Shown here: positions 15,967 to 42,129 of the stretch, one piece after another
How the letters are laid out: each line of letters starts with the position of its first letter
How positions within the stretch are numbered: the first letter of the stretch is position 1
Source: a virus
Reading direction: 5' to 3' (one strand)
Virus record (IMG/VR): IMGVR_UViG_3300044970_001297
Location: 28,789 to 92,788 of that record
DNA: 64,000 nt
Program-made: the position numbers and the translations under genes
The notes under the pieces: generated by a model
Told to the model about the DNA's origin: nothing
What the model saw: the letters and a program-made list of their open reading frames with translations, nothing else
Databases searched by the model: none

Positions 15967-15977
15967 GTTGCAGATAT

Positions 15978-17986: not shown

Positions 17987-17993
17987 AGTCCAT

Positions 17994-18756: not shown

Positions 18757-18811
18757 TGCGAGTTTCCTTTGTTTGTTTTCGTGTTCTCGGAAAGACAGAC
18801 TACGCACTCAC

Positions 18812-19108: not shown

Positions 19109-19132
19109 TGTGTGTTTCTCTCTTTCTCAGTT

Positions 19133-19420
19133 TCAGGAGGTGACGGTTGCAAGTTCGCGAAGCATGTCGGCAATCTGCTGCCAGTTGATCGTCGGGTCAT
19201 CGACCTTGACTCCATCGGGAGTCTCTTGCTTGCGGTAGTGGTCATCGAACGCGATGCTGACGAACGCCTTTGCCCATGCCGCAGTAGGAAGATTACCACG
19301 GGCATGGAGCCTGTCAACAGCCTTCACGGAAGTCTTGTAAAGATTCTCGTCGTTCGAAAGCCAGAGCGAAATGTTCCATGTGCTGTGGTTCGACCAACCA
19401 TTGTAAGTTTCAGAACTCAT
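19133..19420 (-). CDS. small phage protein of the NWSNHxTWNxxLW type
   Basis: Start ATG 19420 is set by the AGGGAAACACACAATG leader. The 95-residue product begins [20 protein letters not shown] followed by LSNDENLYK. The WSNHxTWNxxLWL motif defines a small family (DUF7249-like) common in phages and plasmids. The C-terminus [14 protein letters not shown] resembles the same family. The function is unknown. Confidence 0.7.
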
Positions 19421-19440
19421 TGTGTGTTTCCCTCTGTGTT

Positions 19441-19731
19441 TCAGGAGTTGGTGTTCTCGTTGCTGCCGTTGCCGTCCTGTTCCGTCGTGTTCTGCGGAGC
19501 GACGGGTGCGGGTGACGGAATCGGGTTGTTGTTCCACACGATGCCACCGACCGCACGACCGCGCTTGAGCGTGATGCGGGTTCCATAGCGCGAGAGCATC
19601 AGGCGACGGATGGTGGACGCGGAAACGCCAGTCAACTTGCCAAGGGTCTTGAAGTTCGTCTTGCCGTTGTTGAGGGTGTTCTCGACGGTGTTCCAATCAA
19701 TGATGTTCGGGTTGATGGGCTTACGAGCCAT
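19441..19731 (-). CDS. helix-turn-helix DNA-binding protein
   Basis: The 96-residue protein has [20 protein letters not shown] followed by [17 protein letters not shown] at about residues 18-52. This is a plausible helix-turn-helix with the recognition helix [10 protein letters not shown]. The tail is Asn/Pro-rich and disordered. The RBS GGAGAAACTCACA is close to the regional leader. It could regulate this region, but no operator is linked to it. Confidence 0.6.
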
Positions 19732-19810
19732 TGTGAGTTTCTCCTGCTGAAGTTTGAAATTTGAAAAACAGAAAACGAATTTTGAGTTTGCGGTCGCTTA
19801 CAAGTTCAGT

Positions 19811-20185
19811 TCATGCGAGATCTCCGTACTGAACTCCCGTCTGCGGATCGCTGTCTGAGGGAGTGTTGCAGCACGATGCACTGCGTCGAGCCTGTGCTGC
19901 GATTCGGACATTCTGTCGTTCGATCACGCGCTGAAGAGCCGCGTTCCGCTCGCTGAGATTGCGAACTTCTTCCTGAAGATCACGGATCTTCTTCTCGTCG
20001 CCCTCACACGCCTCGACTTCGTTCTTCCACCCAGTTGCCTTGCGAACCGCATCGGCGGCAACACGCTCAAGACGCGCATTGTCCTCGCGCAGTTGAATGA
20101 TGATCTTCTCGCGGTTCTGAATCGTCTCCGCGAGGGACTCGACCACGGTGCCGCACACATCGCTGAAAGAGGGAATGTTGCTCAT
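19811..20185 (-). CDS. coiled-coil protein, 124 residues
   Basis: Start ATG 20185 (MSNIPSFSDVCGTVVESLAETIQNREK). Residues about 20-95 form a long coiled coil (IIQLREDNARLERVAADAV, EKKIRDLQEEVRNLSERNAALQRVIERQNVRI). The C-terminus has a CC pair and is disordered. The function is unknown. It lies just downstream of the CobS-like ATPase. Confidence 0.65.
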   Translation of the reverse strand: MSNIPSFSDVCGTVVESLAETIQNREKIIIQLREDNARLERVAADAVRKATGWKNEVEACEGDEKKIRDLQEEVRNLSERNAALQRVIERQNVRIAAQARRSASCCNTPSDSDPQTGVQYGDLA

Positions 20186-20254
20186 GATGAAAACTCCGAA
20201 TGTGAAATTTAGAACTGCGAAATGGGCGGTCGCATCGCCCACCGATGGCGTAGG

Positions 20255-21526
20255 TCAGAACGGGACAGTCTGATCCGACTTCTCGTCCGACTTCGCGCCC
20301 TTCTGCGCGTCGGTCGAGGTGTCCGCGATCTTGTTGTAGAACGAGTAGAACGACTCGCGGGTGTTCTCATCGAACCGCGCAAGCGCGAGGTTCATCGCCG
20401 TCTTGAGATCACCGAAGATCACATAGCCTTCGGCAATCGCGACGAGACGGCGAGTCGAGACGAGATCCTCGACCGCACCCGCCTCATACGCCTTGCGGAC
20501 GGAGTCCGACCAACGCGAGAGGTTCTCCGACAGAGTGGTAGCGACCGCAGCATCGACACCAAGCGCGTCGAACGCCTTGCTGAGGATCGCGATTTCCGTC
20601 GCGACGGGCGGGTACGGCTGATCGACGGTGATCTTGAACCGCTCAAGCAGGGCCTCGTTCTGCACACGGGTGCCGACGAAGCGACCATCGTCGCTACCCT
20701 TGCCCTTGGTGTTCGCGGTCGCGAACACGGTGAAGCCGCGCTCGGGCTTGATGAAGCGACCGACCTTCTTGAGGAAGACGCCCTTGCCCTCAAGCACGGG
20801 CTGAAGGCACATCGTCTTGAACGACCCAAGGTCGAGTTCGTCAAGCAGGAGAACCGCACCGCGCTTCATGGCTTCGACCACGGGACCATCGACCCACACG
20901 GTGTTGCCGTTGATGAGACGGAAACCGCCAAGGAGATCGTCCTCATCCGTCTCTTCGGTGATGTTGACGCGGAAGAACTCGCGACCCTCCTTCGCGCAAA
21001 TCTGCTCGACCATCAGGGTCTTGCCGTTGCCCGAAAGGCCGTTGATCCACGCGGGGAAGAACACCTTCGACTTGACGATGGAGCGCAGGGTCGAGAAGTG
21101 ACCCCACGGCACATAGATCGGATTCGTCGCGGGGACGAACTTCTCGACCTCGGTGACGAGAGCCGCGACCGAAGTGGGCGCGGGTGCCGACTCGACAACC
21201 GCAGCGACCGCCTTGGCGCGGACCTGAGGTGCGACGGGCGCAGACGCAGCGCAAGCAGCGACGGCTTCGGGGATGCTGTAGAGGCCGCGACCCGCACGAC
21301 GCTTCGCGTCGTTCGTGACCCACACGGGCGCACCGCTCATGCCGCACTTCTCAGCAGCAGCGAGAACCTGAGTACGAGTGTAGTTGTGTTCGCCGTCGCC
21401 GTTCCCGTAGAGCGAGACGATGGTGTCCACGAAACGACGCTGACGAGTCTGAAGGTTGCCGTACATGGTGACTCCGTTGTTGGTGTTGCGGATGGGCTTG
21501 GTGCTGTTGGTGATCTTCATCGACAT
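20255..21526 (-). CDS. CobS/MoxR-like AAA+ ATPase
   Basis: The 423-residue protein has Walker A GLSGNGKT near residue 164, Walker B VLLLDELD near 225 and sensor-1 motif FATANTKG near 270, followed by FVGTRVQNEALLERF, typical of CobS/MoxR ATPases. The first ~120 residues are an extra N-terminal region with YGNGDGEHNYTRTQVLAAAEKCG and GRGLYSIPEA, possibly a winged helix. Family knowledge: such ATPases pair with VWA proteins. The CobT-like partner is at 12153-14648. A CobS-like gene is common in T4-like cyanophages. The GC-rich codon use matches the partner. Confidence 0.85.
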   Translation of the reverse strand: MSMKITNSTKPIRNTNNGVTMYGNLQTRQRRFVDTIVSLYGNGDGEHNYTRTQVLAAAEKCGMSGAPVWVTNDAKRRAGRGLYSIPEAVAACAASAPVAPQVRAKAVAAVVESAPAPTSVAALVTEVEKFVPATNPIYVPWGHFSTLRSIVKSKVFFPAWINGLSGNGKTLMVEQICAKEGREFFRVNITEETDEDDLLGGFRLINGNTVWVDGPVVEAMKRGAVLLLDELDLGSFKTMCLQPVLEGKGVFLKKVGRFIKPERGFTVFATANTKGKGSDDGRFVGTRVQNEALLERFKITVDQPYPPVATEIAILSKAFDALGVDAAVATTLSENLSRWSDSVRKAYEAGAVEDLVSTRRLVAIAEGYVIFGDLKTAMNLALARFDENTRESFYSFYNKIADTSTDAQKGAKSDEKSDQTVPF

Positions 21527-21599
21527 GCCATAAGTATCTGATACTTTGATTCGTCTGTCTACGGGGTCGGACGAAAATCCGCGAAAAAAGTCCAGATTT

Positions 21600-21634
21600 C
21601 TGTAAGTCTTGGTCTGGTAAGGACTTACGGAGAA
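21600..21634 (-). promoter_or_regulatory. inverted repeat upstream of the CobS-like gene
   Basis: GTAAGTCTTG and AAGGACTTAC face each other at about 21604-21631, centred about 92 bases before ATG 21526. This matches the element before the CobT-like gene in sequence, arm spacing and distance. Confidence 0.6.
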
Positions 21635-21647
21635 ACAATCCGTGGTT

Positions 21648-22073
21648 TTAGTCGAGGTTTTCGCGCACCTTGCGCCAATAACTCAGAGTTGAGGGCTTTT
21701 TCCAACCTTTTGGACCGCCATTGTGTACGCGGGAGAGGGTTTCGAATGACCAATTCGGTGCGTAGCGAGTCCAGTACGCGATGACGATCTTCCTCGCGTA
21801 GGCTTCGTTCTTGCAGTCTGAGTACTTGCCACCGATGGAAGTATCGAAATCAACCGCGTCCTTCCAATACGAATAGTGAATTTGCAGAGGACCGATTGCC
21901 TTGCCGCCGTCACCGACAGCGTTTGCGGGATCCTTCGATCCGCCCGTCTCAACTTTCTGAACCGCGTCGAGGATGTTGTCGAAGTCGAAGTTTGCGGGAG
22001 GAGGAACCGCGACTGCCGATGCGGTCACGATGAAGGCGAGGATGGTGGGGAGAGTGAAGTTCGTATTCTTCAT
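21648..22073 (-). CDS. secreted lysozyme-like protein, candidate endolysin
   Basis: The 141-residue protein has an N-terminal signal-like segment (MKNTNFTLPTILAFIVTASAVA) and a domain with VETGGSKDPANAVGDGGKAIGPLQI and HYSYWKDAVDF. The Glu of VETGG followed by GxxxGPLQIHYSYW fits lysozyme/transglycosylase folds, close to destabilase (i-type) lysozymes. FETLSRVHNGGPKG resembles the conserved C-terminal loop. A signal-bearing muralytic enzyme would suit host lysis. No holin is adjacent. Confidence 0.7.
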   Translation of the reverse strand: MKNTNFTLPTILAFIVTASAVAVPPPANFDFDNILDAVQKVETGGSKDPANAVGDGGKAIGPLQIHYSYWKDAVDFDTSIGGKYSDCKNEAYARKIVIAYWTRYAPNWSFETLSRVHNGGPKGWKKPSTLSYWRKVRENLD

Positions 22074-22084
22074 TGTGAGTTTCC

Positions 22085-22396
22085 TCAGAGGTTGATGCCG
22101 CTCTTGCGAAGATCAGCGATGATGGAGTCCGCGACATCCGAAATGCTGTCCTCCTCCTGCTTGGTCACGATGTCGATTCCCTTCTTGATGAACTCGGTGC
22201 CTTCGTCCTTGAGGATCTCGCCGTCGCGGATGGTCGAGTAGACGCGGCACTCAGCGATCAGGAGCGCGAGCAGCGATGCCGTCGAGGGGTCGATGCTCTG
22301 TCCCTTCGTGACATACGACACGATGGTCTTGCCGATCAGGTCGATGTTGGTGATGTTCTGCTGCGCGGTGATGATGTCGTTGTTCTTGTCGTTCAT
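22085..22396 (-). CDS. unknown protein, 103 residues
   Basis: The product (MNDKNNDIITAQQNITNIDLIGKTIVSYVTKGQSIDPSTASLLALLIAECR...) is mainly helical. It begins 11 bases after the next gene's territory and carries the AGGAAACACACAATG leader. No motif is recognised. Confidence 0.6.
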   Translation of the reverse strand: MNDKNNDIITAQQNITNIDLIGKTIVSYVTKGQSIDPSTASLLALLIAECRVYSTIRDGEILKDEGTEFIKKGIDIVTKQEEDSISDVADSIIADLRKSGINL

Positions 22397-22413
22397 TGTG
22401 TGTTTCCTTTGTC

Positions 22414-22728
22414 TCAGGACATGTCGGTCGAACGGAACAGATTGTTGTTGGCGTTGGCTTCGCGCTCCTCGCGGAGTCGAGCAATCTCCTTCCGAAGCGA
22501 ATCATTGTCCGCTTCGACTCCTTCTGCCCATGCGGTGAGGTCATTCACCGCTTCACGAAGATCGCGAATCTCCTGTGCTGCCTCACAGAGATCAGTGTTC
22601 GTGAGGATGTGTAGTGGAGGCTTGGTCAGAAGCCTATCAACGATGTCTCGCTTCGTTCCGCCATTCGCAGCGAGTTCGTGGAAGAGCATATGCGAAGCGG
22701 TCTTGGGCGTGTTGTTCTCGTTGTTCAT
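22414..22728 (-). CDS. unknown protein, 104 residues, C-terminal coiled coil
   Basis: The product begins MNNENNTPKTASHMLFHELAANGGTKRDIVDRL. Residues about 48-92 form a coiled coil (EIRDLREAVNDLTAWAEGVEADNDSLRKEIARLREEREAN). It carries the regional leader (AGAAACACACAATG). A predicted small helical protein of unknown role. Confidence 0.6.
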   Translation of the reverse strand: MNNENNTPKTASHMLFHELAANGGTKRDIVDRLLTKPPLHILTNTDLCEAAQEIRDLREAVNDLTAWAEGVEADNDSLRKEIARLREEREANANNNLFRSTDMS

Positions 22729-22749
22729 TGTGTGTTTCTCCTTGTTTGT

Positions 22750-23064
22750 TCAGAGAGTCGAATCGCAGTTGTCGCAGATCTCGACCGCACGGTCGAAGCA
22801 TCCGCACGACTTGTAGTAGGTCGCGTTGTCGAGGTGCGTGAGCGGCACCATCATTGCCATCGAATTCTTGAACTTGCCATCGGAGTACAACTTGCCGACC
22901 TTCGCACGGAGTTCGCGAATCCGCGCCTCTGCCTGTTCGCGGGTGTGGTTCTGCGGTCCAGGCTTGTCGAAGATCAGCGACGGCTCTGCGGTCTTCGTCA
23001 CCTTGACGGAAACCTTGGTGCGGACGGGCTTCGCGGACTTCTTTGCAGTCTTGGTCTTGCTCAT
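22750..23064 (-). CDS. unknown protein with C-terminal Cys cluster, 104 residues
   Basis: Start ATG 23064 (MSKTKTAKKSAKPVRTKVSVKVTKTAEP) gives a Lys-rich N-terminus, a helical middle (REQAEARIRELRAKVGKLYSDGKF) and a C-terminus with CGCFDRAVEICDNC, which could bind zinc. The gene is preceded by AGGAGTTTTCATC. Function unknown. Confidence 0.6.
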   Translation of the reverse strand: MSKTKTAKKSAKPVRTKVSVKVTKTAEPSLIFDKPGPQNHTREQAEARIRELRAKVGKLYSDGKFKNSMAMMVPLTHLDNATYYKSCGCFDRAVEICDNCDSTL

Positions 23065-23083
23065 GATGAAAACTCCTAGTTGT

Positions 23084-23455
23084 TCAGTGCTTGCGAACGA
23101 TCTTGCCAGAGAGTTGCCGATCCCTGCGATTGGAACGATAGTCATGCCGTCCCTCGGAGTCGCCCCAACTACTAGAACGCACAGCCCCAAGGGTCATGGG
23201 TGCGAGTTCCACCCGATCCCCGACGCGCACATCGGGAAGCCCCTCCTGCGTCTGAGACTTGCCGATGTATCCCATGAGTACCCATCCCTCATCGGTGCGA
23301 ATGCGGACCCACATACGCCACACCTTCGGACCAGTGCCGAACGGAACGGTGGTGCCATACACCGCCTTCTTCGCGACGATCTTCCCGCTGAAGGCGTGAG
23401 GAGTCTTGAAGTACTCCATCTTTGGCATTGGTTGGGGTGAATTGCTCTCGTTCAT
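23084..23455 (-). CDS. unknown protein, 123 residues, beta-rich
   Basis: Start ATG 23455 (MNESNSPQPMPKMEYFKTPH). The middle (FSGKIVAKKAVYGTTVPFGTGPKVWRMWVRIRTDEGWVLMGYIG) followed by LPDVRVGDRVELAPMTLGAV reads like an OB- or SH3-type barrel. The tail is Arg/Ser-rich. Binding to nucleic acid is possible, but there is no diagnostic motif. Confidence 0.55.
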   Translation of the reverse strand: MNESNSPQPMPKMEYFKTPHAFSGKIVAKKAVYGTTVPFGTGPKVWRMWVRIRTDEGWVLMGYIGKSQTQEGLPDVRVGDRVELAPMTLGAVRSSSWGDSEGRHDYRSNRRDRQLSGKIVRKH

Positions 23456-23465
23456 CGTCGTGTTC

Positions 23466-23663
23466 TCAGAAAGGAAGGTCGAAGAGGTCGCCAAGGTCGA
23501 GTTCGCCGCCCTTGAGGTGTGCGCGTTCGCGGTCGCGGCGGTCGCACTCCTCATTGTAGGCATTCCACTCTTCGCGCGACTTGAACCTTTCGGGGTATTC
23601 GCGCTGCATTGCGTCGTTGGTGAGCCGTTCGAAGGCGCATGGGTTGTTGGTGTCGCTGCTCAT
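23466..23663 (-). CDS. small charged protein, 65 residues
   Basis: The product (MSSDTNNPCAFERLTNDAMQREYPERFKSREEWNAYNEECDRRDRER...) is helical and highly charged, ending GELDLGDLFDLPF. It is the first gene of its run. The next gene upstream is 157 bases away. No family recognised. Confidence 0.6.
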   Translation of the reverse strand: MSSDTNNPCAFERLTNDAMQREYPERFKSREEWNAYNEECDRRDRERAHLKGGELDLGDLFDLPF

Positions 23664-23820
23664 GATGTCCCACTATGACAGAAAATCGTCCGAATGCAAG
23701 CCCCAAATGAGTCTGAGGCACGAAAAAAACGAAAAAAGGTGAAAATTGTCTCCGAATAGTTCGGAATTTTGACCGATAATGTGATTTTTGCCCCAAATTA
23801 GCATTTTCACACTTCGAAAT
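23664..23820. other. AT-rich intergenic region
   Basis: No gene is visible. A-rich tracts and a small palindrome TCCGAATAGTTCGGA (23751-23765) are present. It probably contains the promoter for the minus-strand run that starts at 23663. No late octamer is seen, which suggests early or middle expression. Confidence 0.45.
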
Positions 23821-24057
23821 TCACATTTTGTCATCTTTGTGGCATGGGCAAGGGTACTTCGCTTCGTCCTTGATGCCCTGCAAGACTATGAAGTTGGATG
23901 GGATGTCCTCGGGATTGCGTAATGCTCTCGCAACTCCGTTGTCGAACTCGCTCTTGGTGAGCAAAAGTTCAAACTGATAGCCTTCGGAGTTCACATGTGT
24001 GCATAGAAAGTACTCGTCTGCCTCTCTCGCGGACTTCTTGTTGAGATTCTTTGCCAT
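23821..24057 (-). CDS. unknown protein, 78 residues
   Basis: The product (MAKNLNKKSAREADEYFLCTHVNSEGYQFELLLTKSEFDNGVARALRNPEDIPS...) has a CPCH near its C-terminus that, with the upstream CTH, could bind a metal. AGGAGG precedes ATG 24057, and a late octamer at 24077-24084 predicts a 14-base leader. Function unknown. Confidence 0.65.
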   Translation of the reverse strand: MAKNLNKKSAREADEYFLCTHVNSEGYQFELLLTKSEFDNGVARALRNPEDIPSNFIVLQGIKDEAKYPCPCHKDDKM

Positions 24058-31669: not shown

Positions 31670-32062
31670 ATGGTTGATCCCGAAAAACACCGCAAGTTGA
31701 TTGACTTCGCCTATGCGAAGTGCCTTGAGATTCCTCGCAGGAAGAAGCATTGCAGCATCATCCTGCACAAGAACCGAATCCTTGCCGTTGGCGTAAATCG
31801 TTTCAAGACGCATCCGCTTGCCGTCAAGCACGGCTACCTCTTCGGTGAGGTGCATTCCGAACTTGATGCTTTCCTGAAGTGCAACAGGCGCGAGGGGCTT
31901 GAACTATGGAACTTTCGTTTCAATAGCCATGGACAGATGCGTATCTCGCGTCCTTGCCCCAAGTGTATGCCATGGTGCGTGAAGTGCTTCGACAAGATCT
32001 ACTACACGATGGACGATGGCATCCATGAGTTTGAGATTGACCTTGCAGACCTCAGGTCTTAG
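31670..32062 (+). CDS. cytidine/deoxycytidylate deaminase-like zinc protein
   Basis: The 130-residue product carries the deaminase zinc motifs: HSELDAFLKC near 63-72 (HxE, with the Glu as proton shuttle) and PCPKCMPWC near 95-104 (PCxxC). The N-terminal AVGVNRFKTHP fits the fold's substrate strand. The fold deaminates free nucleotides or nucleic-acid bases. The exact substrate is not evident. It is shorter than T4 dCMP deaminase and lacks its insert. Its stop overlaps the stop of the converging tape-measure gene. Confidence 0.8.
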   Translation: MVDPEKHRKLIDFAYAKCLEIPRRKKHCSIILHKNRILAVGVNRFKTHPLAVKHGYLFGEVHSELDAFLKCNRREGLELWNFRFNSHGQMRISRPCPKCMPWCVKCFDKIYYTMDDGIHEFEIDLADLRS

Positions 32063-33978
32063 TACGCAAGTCCCATCCTGAAAGCCCTCTCGTCAATGTC
32101 AACACCCGTTCGTGTGGTTGTCAGCGAAGACATCCACGATGTGGTGTTGTTGTTCGTCACGACGGCGTTGTTCGTTGGGGCTACCACTGTTGCTGGCGGT
32201 GGAGTGGACTTGAGATAGGCATAGTCAGACTGAAGACTCGACAGCGTTGCCGACGATGACGGTGTGGTCGCTGGCACAAGCGCACTCGCACCTCCCTCCA
32301 TTCCGACAGGAATCCTTCCGCCTTCCACTCCAGTCGGTATTCCACCACCCTCCATGCCTGTTGGTATTCCGCCACCTTCCATTGGAGTTGGCGGTGTTGC
32401 TACCGTTTCGCCTGGCTTTGGAACCATTGGTTCAGATGGTTGTGCGGTCGCGGTTGTTGGCGGTCCAACAACCGATGAAGTTGGCGATGTTACAGATACC
32501 GAGTTTACTTCACTCTCTGTTCTTTTTGGGACTTCCAAGAAAGATCCCAACCCAGGAATTTGTGTCGCAAGGTCATAGATCTTTTCTCCACCAATCATCG
32601 ATGCAAGGAATTCTCCCAATGCACCAGGACCATATCCCAAAGCATCAAGTGCGCCTACAATGGCATTTCCTGGACCAGGAGCGAGTAGGAGAGCAGCAAT
32701 TTGCGATCCGATGGAAGTCAAGGCACCAGCAAATTTGAGTCCTATCTGTTCTTTCTTTTCTTGATCGGATAAGTTTGGATTTTCTTTAATATCCGAGATA
32801 GCCATGTAGCCCTGTACTGCGGAAAGTACTGGTCCCAAGACTGAGAATATCGTCTTAGCCAGTGGTCCTACCCCGAGTTTGACCAATCCAGCACCAGCAT
32901 TCTTCACAGCACCCAAGGCTTTCCCGCCATAGTTCAATGCACTGCTACCGACAGATTTAATGCTTGCACCAATTCGCGAGAATAACCCTCCCCCACTTGC
33001 TGCACTTCCCGCTGCACTAGACGCACTTCCTGCTGCTTGAGATCCAGCACCCGCTATACTCCGAATTCTCGCTGGCGCATCGGCTCCTTCAAGTACCGCC
33101 GTACTTAAGGGAACGGCGGGAACCATCCGTGTCGCCGCACCCGCTGCACGGGCCGTACCCGCTGCACCAGCAGTAGCCGCACCACCCGCCCCAAACATTC
33201 CTGCCACTCTACCCAATCCAGGAATTTTACCCAGAAGCCTTCCTGCACCAAGGGACTTGGCATCGCTGAGGAAGTCGAATGTGTTTGCTATTTTGCCGAA
33301 CAGCCCTTCGCCCTTTGCAGCAACAGCAAGTTGCTCTTGGTCGTTCTTTCCATTGCCAAAATACTTCTCAAACAAGTCTTTGAAGAAAGTCTCTTCCTTT
33401 TCCTGCTTCTCTTCCTGAATCTCCCTATCTTTTTGCTGCTGTTCCAGCAACTTCTCTTCTTGTGCAAGGCTATCTGGTGGTGGAGGAACCTCGTCAGCAA
33501 GTGCATATGCACCCTCGCCATCCGCAGATGGAGTCAGTCCCTTTGCTTTATCCTTCTTCGTTGTTCGTTCTGTCTCTTGGCTTGATGGTCCAAAAGTCCT
33601 TGTCAATATGTCGAGGATTTCGTAGACCGAGTCTCTAATGTCGCCCATGGCACCCATGGACTTCTTTCTCAATTCCTTCTCCTCAAGTTCTCCCTTGGTG
33701 AGTTTCTTTCCCGTGAGGGGATCGCGACCCTGTTCTTCGAACATCTCGCGCTTCTTGAGGTCGATCTTGTCTGCAAGACCCTTGCCGACCAGCGGTATCT
33801 TCTCCAGAAACTTCATCTGCATGGTCATGACGCTTGACTTGAGGCTTGTGGTCACAGCCTCCTTGAATGTCAAGTTGACTTTCCTGAATCCCTCTTCCAT
33901 GGATTCTACTATAGCGTCTCCCGCATTCATTGCGGGTGCATTTTGGGGAATATTTCCTGATGGGCTTGGTAGTGGCAT
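32059..33978 (-). CDS. tail tape-measure protein (gp29-like)
   Basis: The 639-residue protein has a helical N-terminal half with charged coiled coils (LEEKELRKKSM, EKLLEQQQKDREIQEEKQEKEETFFKDLFEKYF). A long Ala/Gly-rich hydrophobic region follows (about 245-470, including VLGPVLSAVQGYMAISDI and IAALLLAPGPGNAIVGAL). The C-terminus is Pro/Gly-rich with GGGIPTGMEG-type repeats. The length is close to T4 gp29 (590 residues), and it follows the gp26/gp51-like genes, where T4-like phages keep the tape measure. Identity rests on position and architecture. Confidence 0.65.
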   Translation of the reverse strand: MPLPSPSGNIPQNAPAMNAGDAIVESMEEGFRKVNLTFKEAVTTSLKSSVMTMQMKFLEKIPLVGKGLADKIDLKKREMFEEQGRDPLTGKKLTKGELEEKELRKKSMGAMGDIRDSVYEILDILTRTFGPSSQETERTTKKDKAKGLTPSADGEGAYALADEVPPPPDSLAQEEKLLEQQQKDREIQEEKQEKEETFFKDLFEKYFGNGKNDQEQLAVAAKGEGLFGKIANTFDFLSDAKSLGAGRLLGKIPGLGRVAGMFGAGGAATAGAAGTARAAGAATRMVPAVPLSTAVLEGADAPARIRSIAGAGSQAAGSASSAAGSAASGGGLFSRIGASIKSVGSSALNYGGKALGAVKNAGAGLVKLGVGPLAKTIFSVLGPVLSAVQGYMAISDIKENPNLSDQEKKEQIGLKFAGALTSIGSQIAALLLAPGPGNAIVGALDALGYGPGALGEFLASMIGGEKIYDLATQIPGLGSFLEVPKRTESEVNSVSVTSPTSSVVGPPTTATAQPSEPMVPKPGETVATPPTPMEGGGIPTGMEGGGIPTGVEGGRIPVGMEGGASALVPATTPSSSATLSSLQSDYAYLKSTPPPATVVAPTNNAVVTNNNTTSWMSSLTTTRTGVDIDERAFRMGLAY

Positions 33979-33979
33979 C

Positions 33980-34174
33980 TTATCTACTTCTTTGCTGCAA
34001 CTGCTGCTGCTTCAGTCGCTCGTTTTCTTCCTTTATGTGATTCACCAGCAGATTTACATAAACTTCTCTTTCCCAAGGCATCATATATTCCAACTCTGTC
34101 AGCGAGTACTTATGGTGCTGTAGCAATGCGAAGTTCGTGTTGTACAGATTCGCAAGGCTATCGTGACAGAGCAT
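33980..34174 (-). CDS. gp51-like baseplate hub assembly protein
   Basis: The 64-residue protein (MLCHDSLANLYNTNFALLQHHKYSLTELEYMMPWEREVYVNLLVNHIKEENERLKQ) has the SLTELExMxPxEREIYxxLLxxxxxEExxR pattern of the short gp51-type proteins in T4-like marine phages. It overlaps the gp26 gene by one base and is one base from the tape-measure start. T4 gp51 catalyses hub assembly. Confidence 0.65.
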   Translation of the reverse strand: MLCHDSLANLYNTNFALLQHHKYSLTELEYMMPWEREVYVNLLVNHIKEENERLKQQQLQQRSR

Positions 34175-34875
34175 TATGTAAAAAAATCCTGCAACCCGCT
34201 GAAGAATGCCTTGAACTCATGTCCGCACGAAAGGCATTTGCAATCCGCTTCCTTCCTCACGGTTGGCATATTGAGGTAGAACTTTCCCACCAACTCAAAT
34301 TGACTGTTTGTCATCGACTCAATGAACTTCTGTATCTCTTCCTTTGTGAAGTCTTTCTTTGTGTAGACATTGTTCTCATCAAACACGGTTTCAATGGAGT
34401 CTGTCACGAATTCCAAAACTTCATCGACGGACATGTCGCTCATGTTTGGTCGTGCATCGGTCATGCATGGATACCTTATGATGATGCCGACCTTGTCATT
34501 CAACATTATCCTGTTTGATGTGTTCTCTGGAAACTTGACCTCTATTTCGTCAAGGTTGACGGTGATATCATTCGGCTTTTCGCACTTTGGGCATTTTGTT
34601 CTCAGTTCAAGCATTTCGCCAACTGACTTTGCCCGTATCTTCATGAACAGATATTCGATGTCGAACATCGCCATCTTTTCTGGTTGATCCACCCCATCGA
34701 CGCAACCCTTTATGAGGTCGCACATCGCACTAAGTATCTGCTTCTCGTCCTGACTTTCCAGTGCCATGTACAGCACCTTCTGCTCCTTGACCAGAAATGG
34801 CCTGAAGGTTGTCTCCTTCTTGGTCGAAGGTATTGTGATTCTGTATTTTGGTATTCCAAGTGACGGTAATGACAT
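34174..34875 (-). CDS. 26: baseplate hub protein gp26-like with zinc-finger pairs
   Basis: The 233-residue protein begins MSLPSLGIPKYRITIPSTKKETTFRPFLVKEQKVLYMALES, the typical gp26 start (YxxxIPSTxxxxxFRPFLVKEEKxLLxAxES). It has two Cys pairs, CPKCEKPND near 130 and CKCLSCGHEF near 215, that could bind zinc. It ends AFFSGLQDFFT. In T4 gp26 belongs to the baseplate hub. Confidence 0.8.
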   Translation of the reverse strand: MSLPSLGIPKYRITIPSTKKETTFRPFLVKEQKVLYMALESQDEKQILSAMCDLIKGCVDGVDQPEKMAMFDIEYLFMKIRAKSVGEMLELRTKCPKCEKPNDITVNLDEIEVKFPENTSNRIMLNDKVGIIIRYPCMTDARPNMSDMSVDEVLEFVTDSIETVFDENNVYTKKDFTKEEIQKFIESMTNSQFELVGKFYLNMPTVRKEADCKCLSCGHEFKAFFSGLQDFFT

Positions 34876-34901
34876 AATTTACTCCATGTGTTAAAGTTGC
34901 T

Positions 34902-35828
34902 TCATCTTCCACCCAACAGTTCTTGTCTCAGGTCTCCGATTCTCTGTGCGGCCCTGTCCTCGCGTACCCTGTGAATCTCTCTTGCATTTGCCACAGATGT
35001 ATTTACTATAGACTTGGCTGTGGTTGATTCTTCGGTTTCACCGCGGTCGAACCTTGTGTTGTATGGGAAGGTTCTCTTACCTATCACCTGGTATTCCGAA
35101 TATGCCAGCGTCACATTGATGGTGACTATCTGATCGGTGGAATCGGTGGACAATTCTATGTCTGCAATGCTCTTGCAGAATACATTGTACAACTCGGTGC
35201 AGTAGATCTTCAGGTCTTGTCGGTCGAGTTGGTATATCCGCAGATTGGTCATGTAGGAATCTGGATACAGCAAGTCTGCTGTCATGGGCGAATAGACAGA
35301 ACCCATCCAGCCTTCGAAGAAATCTCGTTCGAAGTAGTCTTCACCCACCCTGAAGGTCATCTGAATCTCATTGGCATAGTTTGATTCGTATGCGAGTTCC
35401 ATAGGAGGACCATAAATCTTCAGGGGCTGTGTCTGCAATGCCCTTCCTGGCAAACTCATGCTTTGGCAGTTCCTCACCAAACGCTCGTTCTGAGGCCACC
35501 CAAGACCCTCTATCTCAAAATAGTATCTCGTAGGTCTGGCATAGTAGTTCATCCCAACGATATGGGCCATCTGCTTGCTGACGCTGCTTGTATTGGGATC
35601 CTTGTACTTTATGCCACCCGTCTCGTTGATCAAATCATCGTAGAACTTGGCTATTCTCGCATCTTGTTGCGCTCTATACGACTCTATGGAATCGAAAAAC
35701 GGATTGATTGGTTCCGTGGAACCACCGCGCAACCCAAGATCCTGTAGTGCCTGTTGCGTATTCTTTGCGGCAAGATCCCTTGGTATGTTGTATGGGCTTG
35801 GATTGTTTGTTCCTTGAAACTGCGTCAT
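34902..35828 (-). CDS. 54: baseplate tail tube initiator gp54-like
   Basis: The 308-residue protein contains YYARPTRYYFEIEGLGWPQNERLVRNCQSMSLPGRALQTQPLKIYGPPMELAYE, NEIQMTFRVGEDYFERDFFEGWMGSVYSP and NVTLAYSEYQVIGK. These are the beta-barrel strands of tail-tube-like T4 proteins. The length matches T4 gp54 (320), and the position next to gp26 fits. The N-terminal ~60 residues are an added Gly/Pro-rich arm. It would nucleate tube polymerisation on the baseplate. Confidence 0.75.
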   Translation of the reverse strand: MTQFQGTNNPSPYNIPRDLAAKNTQQALQDLGLRGGSTEPINPFFDSIESYRAQQDARIAKFYDDLINETGGIKYKDPNTSSVSKQMAHIVGMNYYARPTRYYFEIEGLGWPQNERLVRNCQSMSLPGRALQTQPLKIYGPPMELAYESNYANEIQMTFRVGEDYFERDFFEGWMGSVYSPMTADLLYPDSYMTNLRIYQLDRQDLKIYCTELYNVFCKSIADIELSTDSTDQIVTINVTLAYSEYQVIGKRTFPYNTRFDRGETEESTTAKSIVNTSVANAREIHRVREDRAAQRIGDLRQELLGGR

Positions 35829-35831
35829 CTG

Positions 35832-36527
35832 TTACCTTTGTGTTAGTCCCATTTTCTTCATCAACGCATAGGTCTTGCCCCAAACCTTTGTCGGTCTTGC
35901 TCCTACGAAATGATATGTCGGAAGATAAATTGCCTTTAGCCAATGCTCTGGTGGTATTCTGATCGGCTTTCTCCTGATGTTGTCATACTTGTATCTACGA
36001 ATACACGCTTTTCCATATTTATTAGGAAATGAAAAAAGTCTTCTCATGTTCATCCCAAGAATTCTGGCGTTTTCGTTCGACACATCCCCATTCAACTTGG
36101 TCATCAGGCTCAATAGCAGGATTTTTCTATACCTTGGGTAGAGGTAGTGTAGGTTGATTCCCATGAAAGTCTTGGGATCATCCTTGTTGTCTATCATTCG
36201 AATGACAAGTGGGAGCCTGTCCCAATAAGGAATCCTATCGCTTTCCGCCTCGTATACGAACGACCACATGGTTCCTTCCCTGCGGAGAGGGGTGTAGTAC
36301 TCTGGTATGCTGTTGCCAAGTATCATTTTCTTGGCACGAAGGTCGCGTTCGTTGGTTTCCGTTATCTCCCGATAAGCCTGAACGGCAAACTGCTCGTACC
36401 AACGAAGAGCGGCCACTTCATTGTCTTCCGTGGGTTCCTCCAAGTCCTCGTCCTTCATCATCGACATCTCTTCGAAGATTCTCTTGAAGGTCATTGGATC
36501 GTCTTCGTCTTGGTCTTTCTTTTCCAT
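35832..36527 (-). CDS. conserved T4-like protein beside gp4 (possibly DNA end protector)
   Basis: The 231-residue protein has IPYWDRLPLVIRMIDNKDDPKTFMGINLHYLYPRYRKILLLSL and ACIRRYKYDNIRRKPIRIPPEHWLKAIYLP. This is the strongly conserved LPYWDxFPL...GxNLHYLxPxxR...IxPxEWxxAxxLP pattern of a T4-like marine phage protein usually placed near head-completion genes. The acidic N-terminus (about 30 residues) is not conserved in my memory. A gp2-like DNA end protector is a possible identity, but I cannot confirm it. Confidence 0.6.
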   Translation of the reverse strand: MEKKDQDEDDPMTFKRIFEEMSMMKDEDLEEPTEDNEVAALRWYEQFAVQAYREITETNERDLRAKKMILGNSIPEYYTPLRREGTMWSFVYEAESDRIPYWDRLPLVIRMIDNKDDPKTFMGINLHYLYPRYRKILLLSLMTKLNGDVSNENARILGMNMRRLFSFPNKYGKACIRRYKYDNIRRKPIRIPPEHWLKAIYLPTYHFVGARPTKVWGKTYALMKKMGLTQR

Positions 36528-36528
36528 G

Positions 36529-36987
36529 CTACCCCTTTATCCCAAGGTCTGATTCGGTAAGCACGATGAATTTCCACCCACGAGCCGCAGCATAGTTTTT
36601 GGCGGCTTCCCACTTGTTCTGATTCTTGATGTACTGAAAGGATTCGTACATGTATGTCTTGGTCTTTCTCTTCGGTTGCTTTGGTGGCTGTGTCTGCTTC
36701 TTTGGCTTTATCTCAACTAGGTAGGTCTGCAATTCGTTGTTCTTTTCCTTCACTGTGATTCTGAAGTCTATGAAGTACCTGTGTGTCTTTCCATCCATGT
36801 CGTATCTGTAGGGAACCACGGTTGATTCGCTCGACCACTCGACTATCGACTCCTTCATGTCGCAGTAGTTCATGAATTTTCTTTCCCAAGAACTCCTATA
36901 AATAATCTTGGTTGGATCCCCTTTGTACTTCTTGGGGTTTTTTGGGCTGAACACACCCTGTAGGAATCTGTTTTCTCGGTTAACCAT
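36529..36987 (-). CDS. 4: head completion nuclease gp4-like
   Basis: The 152-residue protein has IYRSSWERKFMNYCDMKESIVEWSSESTVVPY, then KTHRYFIDFRITV and YLVEIKPKKQTQPPK. The SSWExxF...VxxWSSE...Y...HRYxxDF...EIKPxxQ pattern is that of T4 gp4 and related VSR-like nucleases, with DF and ExK as probable catalytic residues. gp4 acts on DNA-filled heads before tail joining. Its start codon abuts the gp48 start on the other strand. Confidence 0.85.
   Translation of the reverse strand: MVNRENRFLQGVFSPKNPKKYKGDPTKIIYRSSWERKFMNYCDMKESIVEWSSESTVVPYRYDMDGKTHRYFIDFRITVKEKNNELQTYLVEIKPKKQTQPPKQPKRKTKTYMYESFQYIKNQNKWEAAKNYAAARGWKFIVLTESDLGIKG
36897..36904 (+). promoter_or_regulatory. canonical late promoter TATAAATA for the plus-strand tail operon
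   Basis: TATAAATA lies inside the gp4 gene on the plus strand. The predicted start near 36910 gives a 78-base leader to gp48 at 36988. Confidence 0.65.
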
Positions 36988-38634
36988 ATGTCACAATACG
37001 CTCCAAACAACAAGTTATACACAGAAAACCAAACTATACCGAACCAACTTGAATACCCAATTCTTGGTGCTGCTGGTGCTGGCACTAGGAGAAGGGACAA
37101 GACTTCATTCTATAGATCGGGCGACGGTTCTCTTGAAGAACTCATAAACGCGACTTCGGTTGCTGGCAATCCAGGAATCGAAAGTGGCGCGGGTGATGTG
37201 CGAACCACTTCCATAGATCCAGATCAGAAAAACGAAATACTAGGAATACCGTCATTCTTATCGTATCCGTCTGATCTTGGAAAGAACAGAAGATTTCACC
37301 ACTTCGTGGTCTTCAATATTTATCAAGGATCGTCCGACACGGTCAGAACGAATTCGCGCAAGGCAAATCAGATAACGAGTTCTCTACTTGCGAAGGGTGG
37401 AATACAGTTCAACAATCAAGGTGGTCAAGGTGGGGCCTCTCCCGAAAATCAAACTGACATCTACAATAACCTCATAAAGGCAGGATATTCCCCATCACAG
37501 GCAAATCAGTTTTCCAAGGCTCTTTTCAGTGGTATAACAGGTCTTGAGGGAATTGGACTGAAATCGGACGAAAACATTGGCGCATTGGACAACCTTGCAC
37601 AAGGAGCATATTCAAATCCATTTGGCGTTGATCCAGAGACACAACAAGCATTGGATACCGCGTCGTTAATGTATGCTGTTCCTGTCGGAGCAGCAGTCAA
37701 TGTTGCTGGTGGTGTGGTACAAGGTGCTAAGGCTTTTGGTGATGGTGTTGTGAACACTTACGAATTTGCTTCTTCGTTTTTTGCCACAACCAACAGGGAC
37801 AAATTGGAGGACGCCAACAAAAACCCCAAGAACTTCAACCAACGCGGCGCAAGCGGAAGACTCGTAAACAGACCTAAGGAAGAGCAGAACATACTTCTGG
37901 CCAATCAGAGGTTCAACAATGCGAATATCAAGTCGAAGGATACAATCGCCCTTTATATGCCGCAGAAATTTGCAATAAACGATCAGATGGTATATTCCGA
38001 AGAAGATATGGGTACATCCAAAATGCTTCTTGATGCGTTGTCTGGCAAGCGAGGTGCTGTATCGGCTTTGCTTGAAAAAACAGGAAGAAAGGGTATTTCT
38101 GATGCTGTGGGTTTGATAGGGCAGATGGCTCAGAATTCTAATCAAATAATAGGCGGTGCGGTCAATGAAATAGCGGCAGAGGCAAATCTTGCCGCTGTGA
38201 GAGCCGCTGCGACCAGAACTGTACAGAATCCACGAAAAGAAATGATGTTCCGCGATGTGAACATCAGAACACATGCATTCTCATTCGATTTCATGCCAAG
38301 GAACGAACAGGAAGCGGAAACGGTACTCAACATAATAAGAATGTTCAGATACCATGCCCATCCTGGCTTGCAGGGTGGTGGTGGACACTTCTACACATTC
38401 CCCGCAGAGTTTGAGATGACATTCTACACGATACAGGAACCAAGTGGGATGGTGGTGGTAAACGACAACTTGCCAAAGATGCCAAGACTTGCATTGCAAT
38501 CGGTGTCGGTTGACTTTTCTGCGGCAGGAGATTTCAAGACATTCACGGATGCGAAGCCAGCATTCATTCGCTTAGAGTTGGGGTTCCAAGAGATGGAACA
38601 ACTTACAAACGAACACATCGTTCACGGATACTGA
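36988..38634 (+). CDS. 48: baseplate tail tube cap gp48-like, enlarged
   Basis: The 548-residue protein shows the tube-like strands of T4 gp48: RFHHFVVFNIYQ near 109-120, KDTIALYMPQKFAINDQMVYSEEDMG near 310, AFSFDFMPRNEQEAETVLNIIRMFRYHAHP near 430 and FYTFPAEFEMTFYTIQE. It is clearly longer than T4 gp48 (364 residues), mainly because of an Ala/Asn/Gly-rich insert between about 125 and 300. It caps the baseplate end of the tail tube together with gp54. Confidence 0.8.
   Translation: MSQYAPNNKLYTENQTIPNQLEYPILGAAGAGTRRRDKTSFYRSGDGSLEELINATSVAGNPGIESGAGDVRTTSIDPDQKNEILGIPSFLSYPSDLGKNRRFHHFVVFNIYQGSSDTVRTNSRKANQITSSLLAKGGIQFNNQGGQGGASPENQTDIYNNLIKAGYSPSQANQFSKALFSGITGLEGIGLKSDENIGALDNLAQGAYSNPFGVDPETQQALDTASLMYAVPVGAAVNVAGGVVQGAKAFGDGVVNTYEFASSFFATTNRDKLEDANKNPKNFNQRGASGRLVNRPKEEQNILLANQRFNNANIKSKDTIALYMPQKFAINDQMVYSEEDMGTSKMLLDALSGKRGAVSALLEKTGRKGISDAVGLIGQMAQNSNQIIGGAVNEIAAEANLAAVRAAATRTVQNPRKEMMFRDVNIRTHAFSFDFMPRNEQEAETVLNIIRMFRYHAHPGLQGGGGHFYTFPAEFEMTFYTIQEPSGMVVVNDNLPKMPRLALQSVSVDFSAAGDFKTFTDAKPAFIRLELGFQEMEQLTNEHIVHGY
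37317..37324 (-). promoter_or_regulatory. late-promoter-like octamer GATAAATA for the minus-strand unit
   Basis: The minus strand reads GATAAATA inside the gp48 gene. Used as a promoter it would start transcripts near 37311, running into gp4 and the rest of the minus-strand tail unit (leader about 324 bases). A coding-region coincidence is possible. Confidence 0.4.
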
Positions 38635-38637
38635 TAC

Positions 38638-39507
38638 ATGTACGACAAATTACCAACAGTAAACTATGTCACGCCACAAGGCTACAGGCAGATGTCCGAC
38701 ATCACCGTCAGGTTCAAGGTCGAGCAGACGGTCATAGACGAAGGCGCATATCCGCTTAATATCACGATCAACGATACAGATAGGCCAGAGATTCTCGCAC
38801 ACAGGGTATACAAGGACTCATATCTGAATTGGATGGTTCTGAACCTAAACAACATGGTGAATCCATATTACGATTGGGTTCTATCCTCCGTTGCAATGGA
38901 CAACTACATCACCGAAAAGTATCCTGGCTACACGGTCTTTCTGACAAGCGTGGGTGGATCAACGGCATTTGAAGGTTCCTTCCGCACAAACGACATCGTG
39001 TATGCCACTGGCGTGAGCAGTGCCGATGCACAACCATCCATATTGGATTCGCTAAAGAACGCAAGGGTTGTTGAGTACGACCCGCAGTATTGCAGACTTG
39101 TCATAGACTTGACGCAGAAGACAGCATGGATACCCGCAGAGGGAGACCTCATTTCTGGTGCAAATACAAATGTCCTTGGAGAGGCCACCTACTATGTCGC
39201 AAGGATCGGAAAGGTGGCGCAGAGTCCATATGCAGTGCATCATTTTCAGAACTCCGATGGCGAGATATTGAATCCACGGATTCCAAAGTCACTGCACGGC
39301 GAGTTCCTATCAACCTCAAGTTTCGGGTTCACATTCGGAGCAACTCCGATTGGAAGGTACATACTTGAGGATCATGTGGACGATGTGGTGACGAATCGCG
39401 AATACGAAACAAAGATCAACGATGACAAGAGAAACATCGTCCTTGTCGATCCAGTCTATATTGCCAACATAAACCGAGATGTGGACTCGTTCTTGAACAA
39501 TGTCTAA
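38638..39507 (+). CDS. 53: baseplate wedge gp53-like
   Basis: The 289-residue protein has INDTDRPEILAHRVYKDSYLNWMVLNLNNMVNPYYDWVLS (about 45-85), which is the gp53 signature RPExLAxxxYxDxxLxWxxLxxNxxxxPYYDW. The C-terminal half (NREYETKINDDKRNIVLVDPVYI) is longer than in T4 gp53 (196 residues). It starts three bases after the gp48 stop and overlaps the gp27 start by eight bases. Confidence 0.88.
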   Translation: MYDKLPTVNYVTPQGYRQMSDITVRFKVEQTVIDEGAYPLNITINDTDRPEILAHRVYKDSYLNWMVLNLNNMVNPYYDWVLSSVAMDNYITEKYPGYTVFLTSVGGSTAFEGSFRTNDIVYATGVSSADAQPSILDSLKNARVVEYDPQYCRLVIDLTQKTAWIPAEGDLISGANTNVLGEATYYVARIGKVAQSPYAVHHFQNSDGEILNPRIPKSLHGEFLSTSSFGFTFGATPIGRYILEDHVDDVVTNREYETKINDDKRNIVLVDPVYIANINRDVDSFLNNV

Positions 39508-40813
39508 TACACCAGCAAGCACAACATCATACTCGCAGCAGAACGACTACCAGATTCTGAAGTTGCAGATAGTGTCGAACAACGGTGGAACACCCGTTGA
39601 TCTATTGCCGCAGTTCATCGAACTCATGACATTCGAAACAATATACGACACCAAGATGATCGGTGAACTGCTCCTGTTGGACGCACTGAACTATTCAGAG
39701 GCGATTCCAATAGTGGGAAACGAGACCGTGTTCATATCCTTCAAGACACCAGGTGCAGCGGATCCGATTGAAATAGTTGGCAAGGTCTTTGCTGTTTTGG
39801 GAAAGTCGCGTCGAAGCAACGAGAAGTCGGAAACATACAAGTTGCAGTTCATCAGCGAAACGCAGTTCGAAAACAACAAGGCCAAGATATCTTGTTCCAA
39901 GAAGGGAACGATAGCGAAGATAGCGGAAAAAATCTTCACTGAAAACTTCAAGCGCGCGAAGCCTCTTACGATAGATCCAGTGAACAGCAAGGAGTTTCAG
40001 TTCCTGTTTCCATACTGGTCTCCCCTCTATTCCATAAACTGGTTGGCACAGAGGGCATTCTCGCCTGGTCCATCGAACAGAACCACCCCATCATGCTTTT
40101 TCTTCTATGAGGATGTGGATGGCTTTCATCTTGCGGATATTGTTCACAGATCTCAGTTTCCCACGGTAATGACCTATAGACATGAGCCACACAATCCAAT
40201 GAACAGAACCGATGTGAATAGGTTCTTTGAGAAGGTTCAGGACTATCAGGTGGATGCATACTTCGACAGGGTTTCGGAATACAAGCGGGGAATGTACTCT
40301 GGCTATCTCATGACGCATGACATCACGAACAAGAAGATGGACTACTTCGAATACGATTACCATGATTCGTTCGGAAAGGTTCCACACCTGAATGCACAGA
40401 AACTCATCTCTCCGAACGACAGGAGTTTGGTCGATGCAAAGATGGGTTTCATGAACTACATGCCAGTGCAGACGAGCAGATTCGGTTCTGGAACTGAAAA
40501 CGATGTTCCCCAAAACTACTTGCCCAACAGGGCAAGCATAATCAACCAGTTCAATACAATGAAGATGACTTTGCTTGTGAATGGAAACTCAAGTCTTCGC
40601 CTTCTCGACATCATCAATTTTGAGATACCGAAGACAGCCTACATGAGTGCAACCGAGAAAGATTGGGAGGATGGTTATCTGAGTGGCAGATACATGATCG
40701 TATCTCTGAAGCACATGATAAATAGAGAGGTTGGTTACAACACCACCATAACAATGGCAAAGGACTCCTTGATCAGAGGAATACCCGATGCATACGAGAG
40801 GTCAACTTTTTAG
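39500..40813 (+). CDS. 27: baseplate hub gp27-like
   Basis: The 437-residue protein has the gp27 features: LKLQIVSNNGGTPVDLLPQFIELMTFETIYDTKMIGELLLLDALN and FLFPYWSPLYSINWLAQRAFSPG, with the PYWxPLxxINWLAxRA motif. The length is near T4 gp27 (391 residues). It forms the hub ring with gp5 at the tail tip. Confidence 0.88.
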   Translation: MSNTPASTTSYSQQNDYQILKLQIVSNNGGTPVDLLPQFIELMTFETIYDTKMIGELLLLDALNYSEAIPIVGNETVFISFKTPGAADPIEIVGKVFAVLGKSRRSNEKSETYKLQFISETQFENNKAKISCSKKGTIAKIAEKIFTENFKRAKPLTIDPVNSKEFQFLFPYWSPLYSINWLAQRAFSPGPSNRTTPSCFFFYEDVDGFHLADIVHRSQFPTVMTYRHEPHNPMNRTDVNRFFEKVQDYQVDAYFDRVSEYKRGMYSGYLMTHDITNKKMDYFEYDYHDSFGKVPHLNAQKLISPNDRSLVDAKMGFMNYMPVQTSRFGSGTENDVPQNYLPNRASIINQFNTMKMTLLVNGNSSLRLLDIINFEIPKTAYMSATEKDWEDGYLSGRYMIVSLKHMINREVGYNTTITMAKDSLIRGIPDAYERSTF

Positions 40814-40827
40814 AATGGAGCAATAGC

Positions 40828-40965
40828 ATGGAAGAAAGCGAAAAGAGAGTAATAACGCCAGCAGAAACCGAGAAGAAGTTGTGGAAGTTGCCATACACCA
40901 AGGAAGAGATGTTGGATTGGGAGAGATGGGGAAACGAAAACTTCGGCCACAACGAAAGGAACTGA
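40828..40965 (+). CDS. small charged protein between gp27 and gp5, 45 residues
   Basis: ATG 40828 has GGAG eight bases upstream. The frame encodes MEESEKRVITPAETEKKLWK and LPYTKEEMLDWERWGNENFG. A short charged helical protein in this gap is plausible as a chaperone or hub accessory. No family recognised. Confidence 0.6.
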   Translation: MEESEKRVITPAETEKKLWKLPYTKEEMLDWERWGNENFGHNERN

Positions 40966-40977
40966 TTTAGGATGATA

Positions 40978-42129
40978 ATGGGTCAAAACGGATTTGTGTG
41001 GTGGTTTGGTGTTGTCGAGGACACCAAAGATCCGTTGACTCTTGGCAGGGTTCGTGTTCGCATTTTCGGATACCACCCCGAGAACAAGAAGACCCTGCCT
41101 ACAGCCGATCTTCCCTGGGCACATCCTCTTCTCGACATAACTAGCGCATCCATAAGCGGTGTCGGAAAATCCCCCACAGGACTCATCGAAGGATCCCATG
41201 TGTTTGGATTCTTTCGCGATGGGGACAATGCACAGCAGCCCATAGTGATGTTCTCTGTGGGTGGAATACCGCAGGAGATTGCTAACAAGGATGTAGGATT
41301 CAATGATCCATCTGGCACATATCCAACTCAGGAATATGTGGACGCGAAGCACAGCGATGTGAATTTCCTGGCGACGGGAAAAAACACAGAGCAGACAATT
41401 GTGCAAAGCAAGAAGGACAATGTGGTGTCCGATGTTCCTGTGGCATGGGACACATTCGAAAAGGAAAAGTGGTCTGAACCAGAGACACCCTACAAGCCAG
41501 AGTATCCCAACAACAAGGTGTTCACCACCAAGTCTGGCATGGTCGAGGAGTGGGACGATACTCCAGGAAAGGAAAGACACCACACATATCATCCTGGTGG
41601 TTCCTATGAGGAGGTCTCAAGTGCGTTCCAAGGCAATCCTCCTGGAACAAGAGTCCACAAGATCAAGGGAAACAACTACGAACTGATAGCGGGTAGTGAC
41701 TTCGTGCAGATAGACGGTTCCGCAAAGATCACCATAAAGGGCGATGCGAGCGTCTACATTGGCTCACGACTTACTGGTGGAAACCTAAACCTACAGGTTG
41801 ACGGGAATGTGAATCTTCAGGCATTCCGAGATGTGCGAGCGGTTGTCTATGGAACATGGGATGTTGCTGTGCTTGGGGACTACAGAGAAACAGTCATGGG
41901 CAACAAGTACACGACCGTCTATGGAAACTGCGTCAGTGAGATATGGGGTCTTGGTGGATTCGTGGTCAACTCCAATGTCGGTGATGTGATTCTCAAGACA
42001 CGCATCGGCAGCGATCTTGCTCTCTCTGGAAAGATCCCGACGATCAAGTTGAACTGCCTCTCCAGAAAGGGAGAGGTGGATGCCATGATAATTCCTGGCC
42101 TGTACCCAAACCCGTTCCTTGGAGGCTGA
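40978..42129 (+). CDS. 5: baseplate spike gp5-like without lysozyme domain
   Basis: The 383-residue protein begins MGQNGFVWWFGVVEDTKDPLTLGRVRVRIFGYHPENK, the OB-fold of gp5 (WWxGVVEDxxDPxxxGRVRVRIFG), with PWAHPLLDITSASISGVG. A linker leads to a C-terminal beta-helix of short repeats (about 220-350: DGSAKITIKGDASVYIG, LQVDGNVNLQAFRDVRAVVYG, VAVLGDYRETVMGNK). T4's central lysozyme domain is absent, as in cyanophages. ATG 40978 is preferred for its AGGA spacing. ATG 40972 is in frame. Confidence 0.85.
   Translation: MGQNGFVWWFGVVEDTKDPLTLGRVRVRIFGYHPENKKTLPTADLPWAHPLLDITSASISGVGKSPTGLIEGSHVFGFFRDGDNAQQPIVMFSVGGIPQEIANKDVGFNDPSGTYPTQEYVDAKHSDVNFLATGKNTEQTIVQSKKDNVVSDVPVAWDTFEKEKWSEPETPYKPEYPNNKVFTTKSGMVEEWDDTPGKERHHTYHPGGSYEEVSSAFQGNPPGTRVHKIKGNNYELIAGSDFVQIDGSAKITIKGDASVYIGSRLTGGNLNLQVDGNVNLQAFRDVRAVVYGTWDVAVLGDYRETVMGNKYTTVYGNCVSEIWGLGGFVVNSNVGDVILKTRIGSDLALSGKIPTIKLNCLSRKGEVDAMIIPGLYPNPFLGG

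Follow-up and report, generated by a model that had tools for sequence, protein, structure and literature searches.

The window, i.e., the whole 64,000-nucleotide stretch analysed here, corresponds to positions 28789-92788 of a 92.8-kb viral record (G000). Two structural genes of this T4-like phage diverge within it from touching start codons:

36529..36987, minus strand: gp4, head completion/head closure, 152 aa; best PHROG 218 (head closure), E 3.3e-57
36985..36990: CATATG, the touching start codons, with 0 nt between the gp4 and gp48 starts
36988..38634, plus strand: gp48-like baseplate tail tube cap, 548 aa; PHROG 230, E 8.9e-44; relatives found

An earlier note on this DNA had placed the gp4 start at 36987 (minus strand) and the gp48 start at 36988 (plus strand), forming CATATG, and the sequence and the list of open reading frames (ORFs) agree with it exactly. 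As neither ORF has an in-frame ATG, GTG or TTG upstream of its ATG in the ORF list of the window, the lack of a gap is not a calling choice, and mis-called start codons were rejected as an explanation. According to PHROG profiles, the minus run (34174-36987) consists of the baseplate hub, tail tube, DNA end protector and gp4 genes, and the plus run (36988-42129) of gp48, a baseplate wedge, a tail protein and a gp5-like hub. The same note had called these “divergent tail operons”; the genes do diverge, but “tail” is a loose term for a minus run that includes head completion and DNA end protector genes. Homologues of gp4 were present in 2,475 phage records (40 of these listed). A search of bacterial and archaeal genomes for gp48 relatives found none, and the phage collection yielded no close DNA match.

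Several other features of the window were recorded. A 639-aa ORF beside the baseplate hub gene (32059-33978, minus strand) carries repeated GGGIPTG-like stretches and has no PHROG match. The GC content of 12001-24000 is 0.53-0.59, compared to 0.43-0.51 over most of the rest, and among the genes in this region are a peptidase-like one (12153-14690) and one for a porphyrin-biosynthesis-like ATPase (20255-21526). The ORF at 4923-6338 (minus strand) has a weak cytidyltransferase PHROG match (5.1e-8) and adjoins four large ORFs without a match.

Each of the two divergent genes carries, on its non-coding strand, an octamer resembling a late promoter of phage T4, both at the places given in the earlier note:

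36897..36904, plus strand: TATAAATA, putative gp48 late promoter, antisense in gp4 codons Ile28-Ile29-Tyr30-Arg31
37317..37324, minus strand: GATAAATA, putative gp4 late promoter, antisense in gp48 codons Asn110-Ile111-Tyr112-Gln113

In the latter, the core ATAAATA occupies 37323-37317 of the minus strand, with a G before it at 37324. The first base of the octamer is free in cyanophages, and both sequences conform to that pattern. Each is located upstream of a late structural gene, gp48 or gp4, and has the same direction as that gene.

ATAAATA occurs nine times in the window versus 3.19 expected (0 of 100 shuffles reach nine), and TATAAATA occurs twice versus 0.45 expected (7 of 100 shuffles reach two). 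Within the minus-coded block 32059-36987, [AC]TAAATA occurs on the plus strand only at 36897; within the plus-coded block 36988-63161, it occurs on the minus strand only at 37317. Only two of the 22 Ile-Tyr pairs in the 18 late-block genes of the window are coded TATTTAT, and these are exactly the two sites. For ten of the 16 [AC]TAAATA copies in the window, a called start in the same orientation follows within 100 nt, a count made without a control. Synonymous resampling yielded an antisense ATAAATA with P 0.026 in the first 60 codons of gp4 and P 0.049 in the first 130 codons of gp48, and the excess of the sense-strand motif in the plus block was not significant (4 vs 2.44 in shuffles, P 0.23). 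With such values, the octamer pair is only mildly improbable in this genome alone and is a hint, not proof. Two further late-promoter cores lie in the sense direction within coding sequence, one at 36016-36022 (minus strand), 187 nt upstream of the tail tube gene, and the other at 40718-40724 (plus strand), 247 nt upstream of the gp5-like gene. Sigma-70 promoters were considered as the real source and rejected, with two weak matches in 35800-38700, both at 37.9-38.4 kb, versus a shuffle mean of 4.1.

The T4-type late motif spans positions −13 to −6 relative to the transcription start, according to the accessible part of PMC1524935. With this spacing, the octamers would give the following transcripts:

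36910, plus strand: predicted start of the gp48 transcript, leader 78 nt
37311, minus strand: predicted start of the gp4 transcript, leader 324 nt
36910..37311: stretch common to both predicted transcripts, 402 nt, including both start codons and ribosome-binding regions

An antisense overlap of about 400 bases had been anticipated, and 402 nt is the length computed from the octamer positions and the T4 spacing. It follows from where the promoters lie, while the start sites and any duplex formation are predicted from that spacing. The picture of divergence applies to the genes; the promoters point towards each other. As for the divergent, overlapping transcripts of an excludon, the divergence is seen in the genes and the 402-nt overlap would result from the predicted starts.

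Comparison with relatives strengthened the case. The clade sharing this junction is represented by the window and 14 relatives among the matches listed in the viral-contig searches (the best 80 of 329 and the best 80 of at least 579 loci), and the gap between the gp4 and gp48 starts ranges from −2 to 13 nt across its 15 representatives. One of them, L101, has a partial gp4; it was included in the 15-lineage count and omitted from the gp4 tree. Nowhere in gp4 or gp48 of these lineages does an antisense [AC]TAAATA occur other than at the two homologous sites. The exact core is present at the gp4 site (gp48 promoter) in 12 of the 15 lineages versus 1.63 expected, at the gp48 site (gp4 promoter) in nine versus 2.10, and at both together in eight; the expected values were obtained by resampling synonymous codons at the usage of the lineage concerned, with shared descent ignored. 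In each exception a single base is changed, at position three of the middle Ile codon, which gives TATACATA, GATAGATA and GATATATA at the gp4 site (L009, L020 and L087) and GATAGATA at the gp48 site in six lineages. In the six lineages lacking the exact gp4 motif, no other exact motif was found within 800 nt upstream of gp4.

Ile28-Ile29-Tyr30 is the most synonymously constrained of the 134 three-codon windows of gp4 (observed/expected 0.20), and Asn110-Ile111-Tyr112 ranks fifth among the 225 of gp48, its Asn AAT and Tyr TAT being invariant in all 15 lineages. Such constraint is not unique to the sites. In gp4, Ser32 is just as invariant and Ile73 is as constrained, or nearly so; in gp48, constraint at the last codons exceeds that at the site. 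Taken together, codon constraint, recurrence at the site and resampling indicate that the motif, although within coding sequence, is kept beyond what the protein needs.

Embedded motifs were compared with motifs at the ordinary upstream position. We used 165 of 189 gp4 rows (nine with less than 300 nt upstream and 15 without a divergent ORF were omitted), grouped them into 59 lineages at a DNA identity of 85%, and scored as upstream any motif at least 12 nt before the neighbour's start and outside the embedded site. Fifteen lineages had the embedded motif only, 30 the upstream motif only, one (L161) both and 13 neither (Fisher p 1.4e-5); clustering at 75% gave 42 lineages, with 6, 27, 1 and 8, respectively (Fisher p 0.003), and shared descent inflates both the motif counts and these Fisher values. 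The divergent neighbour proved to be a baseplate tail tube cap in all ten cases compared with PHROGs, among them embedded lineages distant from the window's clade (L048, L159, L177, L135 and L182). On a gp4 tree built with the motif columns removed, the embedded state among the lineages with divergent gp48 requires seven changes, gains or losses, at least three of them forced by well-supported branches. A strict pairwise test on this tree (sign test p 1) was uninformative because only two independent pairs lie on well-supported branches. In L039, L062, L158, L044 and similar loci, the neighbour's TATAAATA overlaps the gp4 start codon (CATATAAATA); this arrangement may be intermediate between the spaced and the embedded state.

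The same alternation was seen in named phages. Twenty-eight were fetched and 26 scored, Syn1 (site not located) and BUCT-ZZ01 (no gp4 annotated in the stretch) being left out; six had the embedded motif only, 15 the upstream motif only, none both and five neither (p 0.002, from a non-random sample). HTVC008M, counted among the five, has a motif just 6 nt before the start. The six with the embedded motif and no usable upstream motif are S-T4, S-CAM1, Sf-CH5, P-RSM6, S-WAM1 and P-TIM40. The frequency of embedding among isolates cannot be read from these numbers, since the gp4/gp48 junction was the query of the DNA search that supplied P-RSM6, S-WAM1, P-TIM40, Sf-CH5, Sf-CH11 and WH25-B, and its matches cover approximately 36871-36952, around the motif. 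In the cultured cyanophages P-RSM6, S-WAM1 and P-TIM40, whose gp4 is 49-50% identical to that of the window, the two annotated start codons share 2 nt (CATG) and motifs are embedded both ways. The neighbour's motif lies 64 nt into gp4, and the gp4-sense motif lies within the divergent gene, 232 (P-RSM6), 79 (S-WAM1) and 200/196 (P-TIM40) nt before gp4. The divergent gene is annotated as tail tube cap in S-WAM1 and P-TIM40 and as hypothetical in P-RSM6. In S-T4, S-CAM1 and Sf-CH5 another gene diverges from gp4, and the embedded motif is present in a one-sided form. Phages with gp48 on the same strand as gp4 were dropped as a control that would need no divergent promoter, as another gene, often the tail tube gene, diverges from gp4 in them.

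The late sigma factor family phrog_234 (from T4 gp55) was found in four of nine related records; the 92.8-kb record to which the window belongs, a fragment, gave no match. PF16807 as the gp55 family proved to be a wrong identification. The record containing L020 (G005, 55,135 bases, also holding L216 and L217) is a GC-richer relative with no ATAAATA at all and, in keeping with the promoter reading, has neither exact embedded motif. ATAGATA was considered as its alternative promoter, two of the four copies in this record being at the homologous embedded sites, and was rejected for lack of enrichment; a search for enriched words upstream found none in this record. TATAA is very rare in its three pieces (L216, L217 and L020).

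Conservation of the sites, synonymous constraint, the near-exclusive alternation with upstream motifs, the sigma factor in four of nine related records and the layout in cultured phages all support the octamers as embedded late promoters. We therefore consider it likely that both are T4-type (gp55-dependent) late promoters that were caught in the coding sequence of the opposite gene as the gap closed. Taken singly, the gp48 promoter is very probably real and the gp4 promoter is, on balance, probably real. The earlier claim of promoters inside opposing genes is thus supported by the comparison, well for the putative gp48 promoter and moderately for the putative gp4 promoter, for which the exact motif is present in nine of the 15 lineages and a variant base in the other six. 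A possible course of events is that: the space between gp4 and gp48 shrank to nothing, so that the late promoters ended up within coding sequence; the octamers survived, or arose, at Ile-Tyr codons able to encode TATTTAT; and selection now holds those codons. The gp48 promoter would be carried antisense by Ile-Ile-Tyr-Arg of gp4 and the gp4 promoter by Asn-Ile-Tyr-Gln of gp48. As the octamers sit in conserved codons, selection would act on the same DNA for its protein code and for promoter function. The late RNA polymerase, if it recognises the octamers through gp55, would start the gp48 mRNA at 36910 and the gp4 mRNA at 37311, and the polymerases would run head-on, each through the opposite promoter. 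With about 400 bp between the facing promoters, the two late mRNAs would be complementary over their first 402 nt wherever both RNAs coexist. Most likely, this antisense overlap is tolerated rather than used, at the high template number of the late stage.

It is also conceivable, although unlikely, that the gp48 promoter alone is real and that gp48 carries its motif as a by-product of Asn-Ile-Tyr, with little or no antisense overlap; gp4 would then be transcribed from a weaker or unrecognised promoter. This would fit the absence of the exact gp4-sense motif in six of 15 lineages, the codon for Ile111, which is ATT in nine and ATC in six of them and changes at the expected rate, and the length of the implied gp4 leader (324 nt). 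However, the flanking AAT and TAT codons do not vary even in the six ATC lineages, the nine gp4-sense motifs stand against 2.1 expected, and the window has no other [AC]TAAATA within 800 nt upstream of gp4. P-TIM40, P-RSM6 and S-WAM1, too, have a gp4-sense motif within the divergent gene. The site-specific recurrence, the synonymous constraint and the near-exclusive alternation with upstream motifs make it very improbable that both octamers are coding coincidences devoid of promoter function, even though the resampling P values in the window genome (0.026 and 0.049) are modest, TATTTAT arises readily from Ile-Tyr pairs, and 13 of the 59 lineages carry neither motif. It follows from these 13 lineages that promoters without an exact motif must exist.

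A different question is whether the reciprocal overlap regulates, with collisions, or RNA duplexes that span both start regions, coupling the late output of gp4 and gp48 as in bacterial excludons. The layout is kept in 15 lineages despite varying gp48 length and start spacing, it is also found in cultured cyanophages, and both start codons fall inside the common 402 nt. Yet the exact motif pair is present in just eight of the 15 clade lineages, and the predicted overlap ranges from about 129 nt (S-WAM1) to 405 nt (L005), a variation that does not suggest a tuned duplex; we consider such regulation quite unlikely. Equally doubtful is the wider proposal that mutual embedding is a regulatory device by which the amounts of gp4 and gp48 restrain each other late in infection, through mRNAs complementary across their entire start regions, and that Ile-Ile-Tyr of gp4 is a recurrent docking place, settled several times, for the promoter of any gene diverging from gp4.

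If both octamers are indeed late promoters embedded by closure of the gap, T4-like phages could dispense with a spacer between divergent operons, each promoter being encoded antisense by conserved codons of the opposite gene, and one octamer would be under protein and promoter selection simultaneously. Overlapping sense mRNAs would be predicted in P-TIM40, S-WAM1 and P-RSM6, and the one-sided form in S-T4, S-CAM1 and Sf-CH5. Transcription-start maps have reportedly been published for phage Syn9. Annotation that accepts late promoters only between genes would miss embedded ones. In one published pipeline, as described in the accessible part of PMC3037559, late promoters were accepted only if intergenic or overlapping a gene end by at most 10 bp, and embedded late promoters would thus have been dropped. 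We recognised no description of mutually embedded promoters at gp4/gp48 in the open-access literature searched, which is weak evidence of novelty as subscription papers lie mostly outside it.

The closest known arrangement is that of T4 genes 4 and 53. There, too, gp4 and a baseplate gene are divergent, and each has a TATAAATA late promoter. In T4, however, both promoters are located in a 47-nt gap, back to back, 27 and 29 nt before the starts, and the Tyr-Arg site of gp4 is without the motif; unlike those of the window, the inferred gene 4 and 53 transcripts do not overlap. The late promoters of cyanophages S-PM2 and Syn9, NATAAATA, have the same motif as the octamers of the window. Such promoters in S-PM2, as well as homologues of gp55, gp33 and gp45 in cyanomyoviruses, are reported in the accessible part of PMC2984593. 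The same portion describes CfrI, an antisense RNA of S-PM2 (PMC2984593). Promoters of T4 gene 32 lie within the segG coding sequence, according to the accessible part of PMC2988022; they are likewise inside another gene, but have the same direction as segG, whereas the pair in the window is antisense and mutual.

An antisense RNA of T4 gene 32 was reportedly described by Belin in 1987. Like this RNA and CfrI, the transcripts predicted here would involve antisense RNA, but both partners would be mRNAs, with their 5′ ends covered. In the excludon of Listeria, one mRNA of two divergent genes is antisense to the other, and regulation has been shown. The genes in the window likewise diverge, and both of their predicted leaders would overlap.
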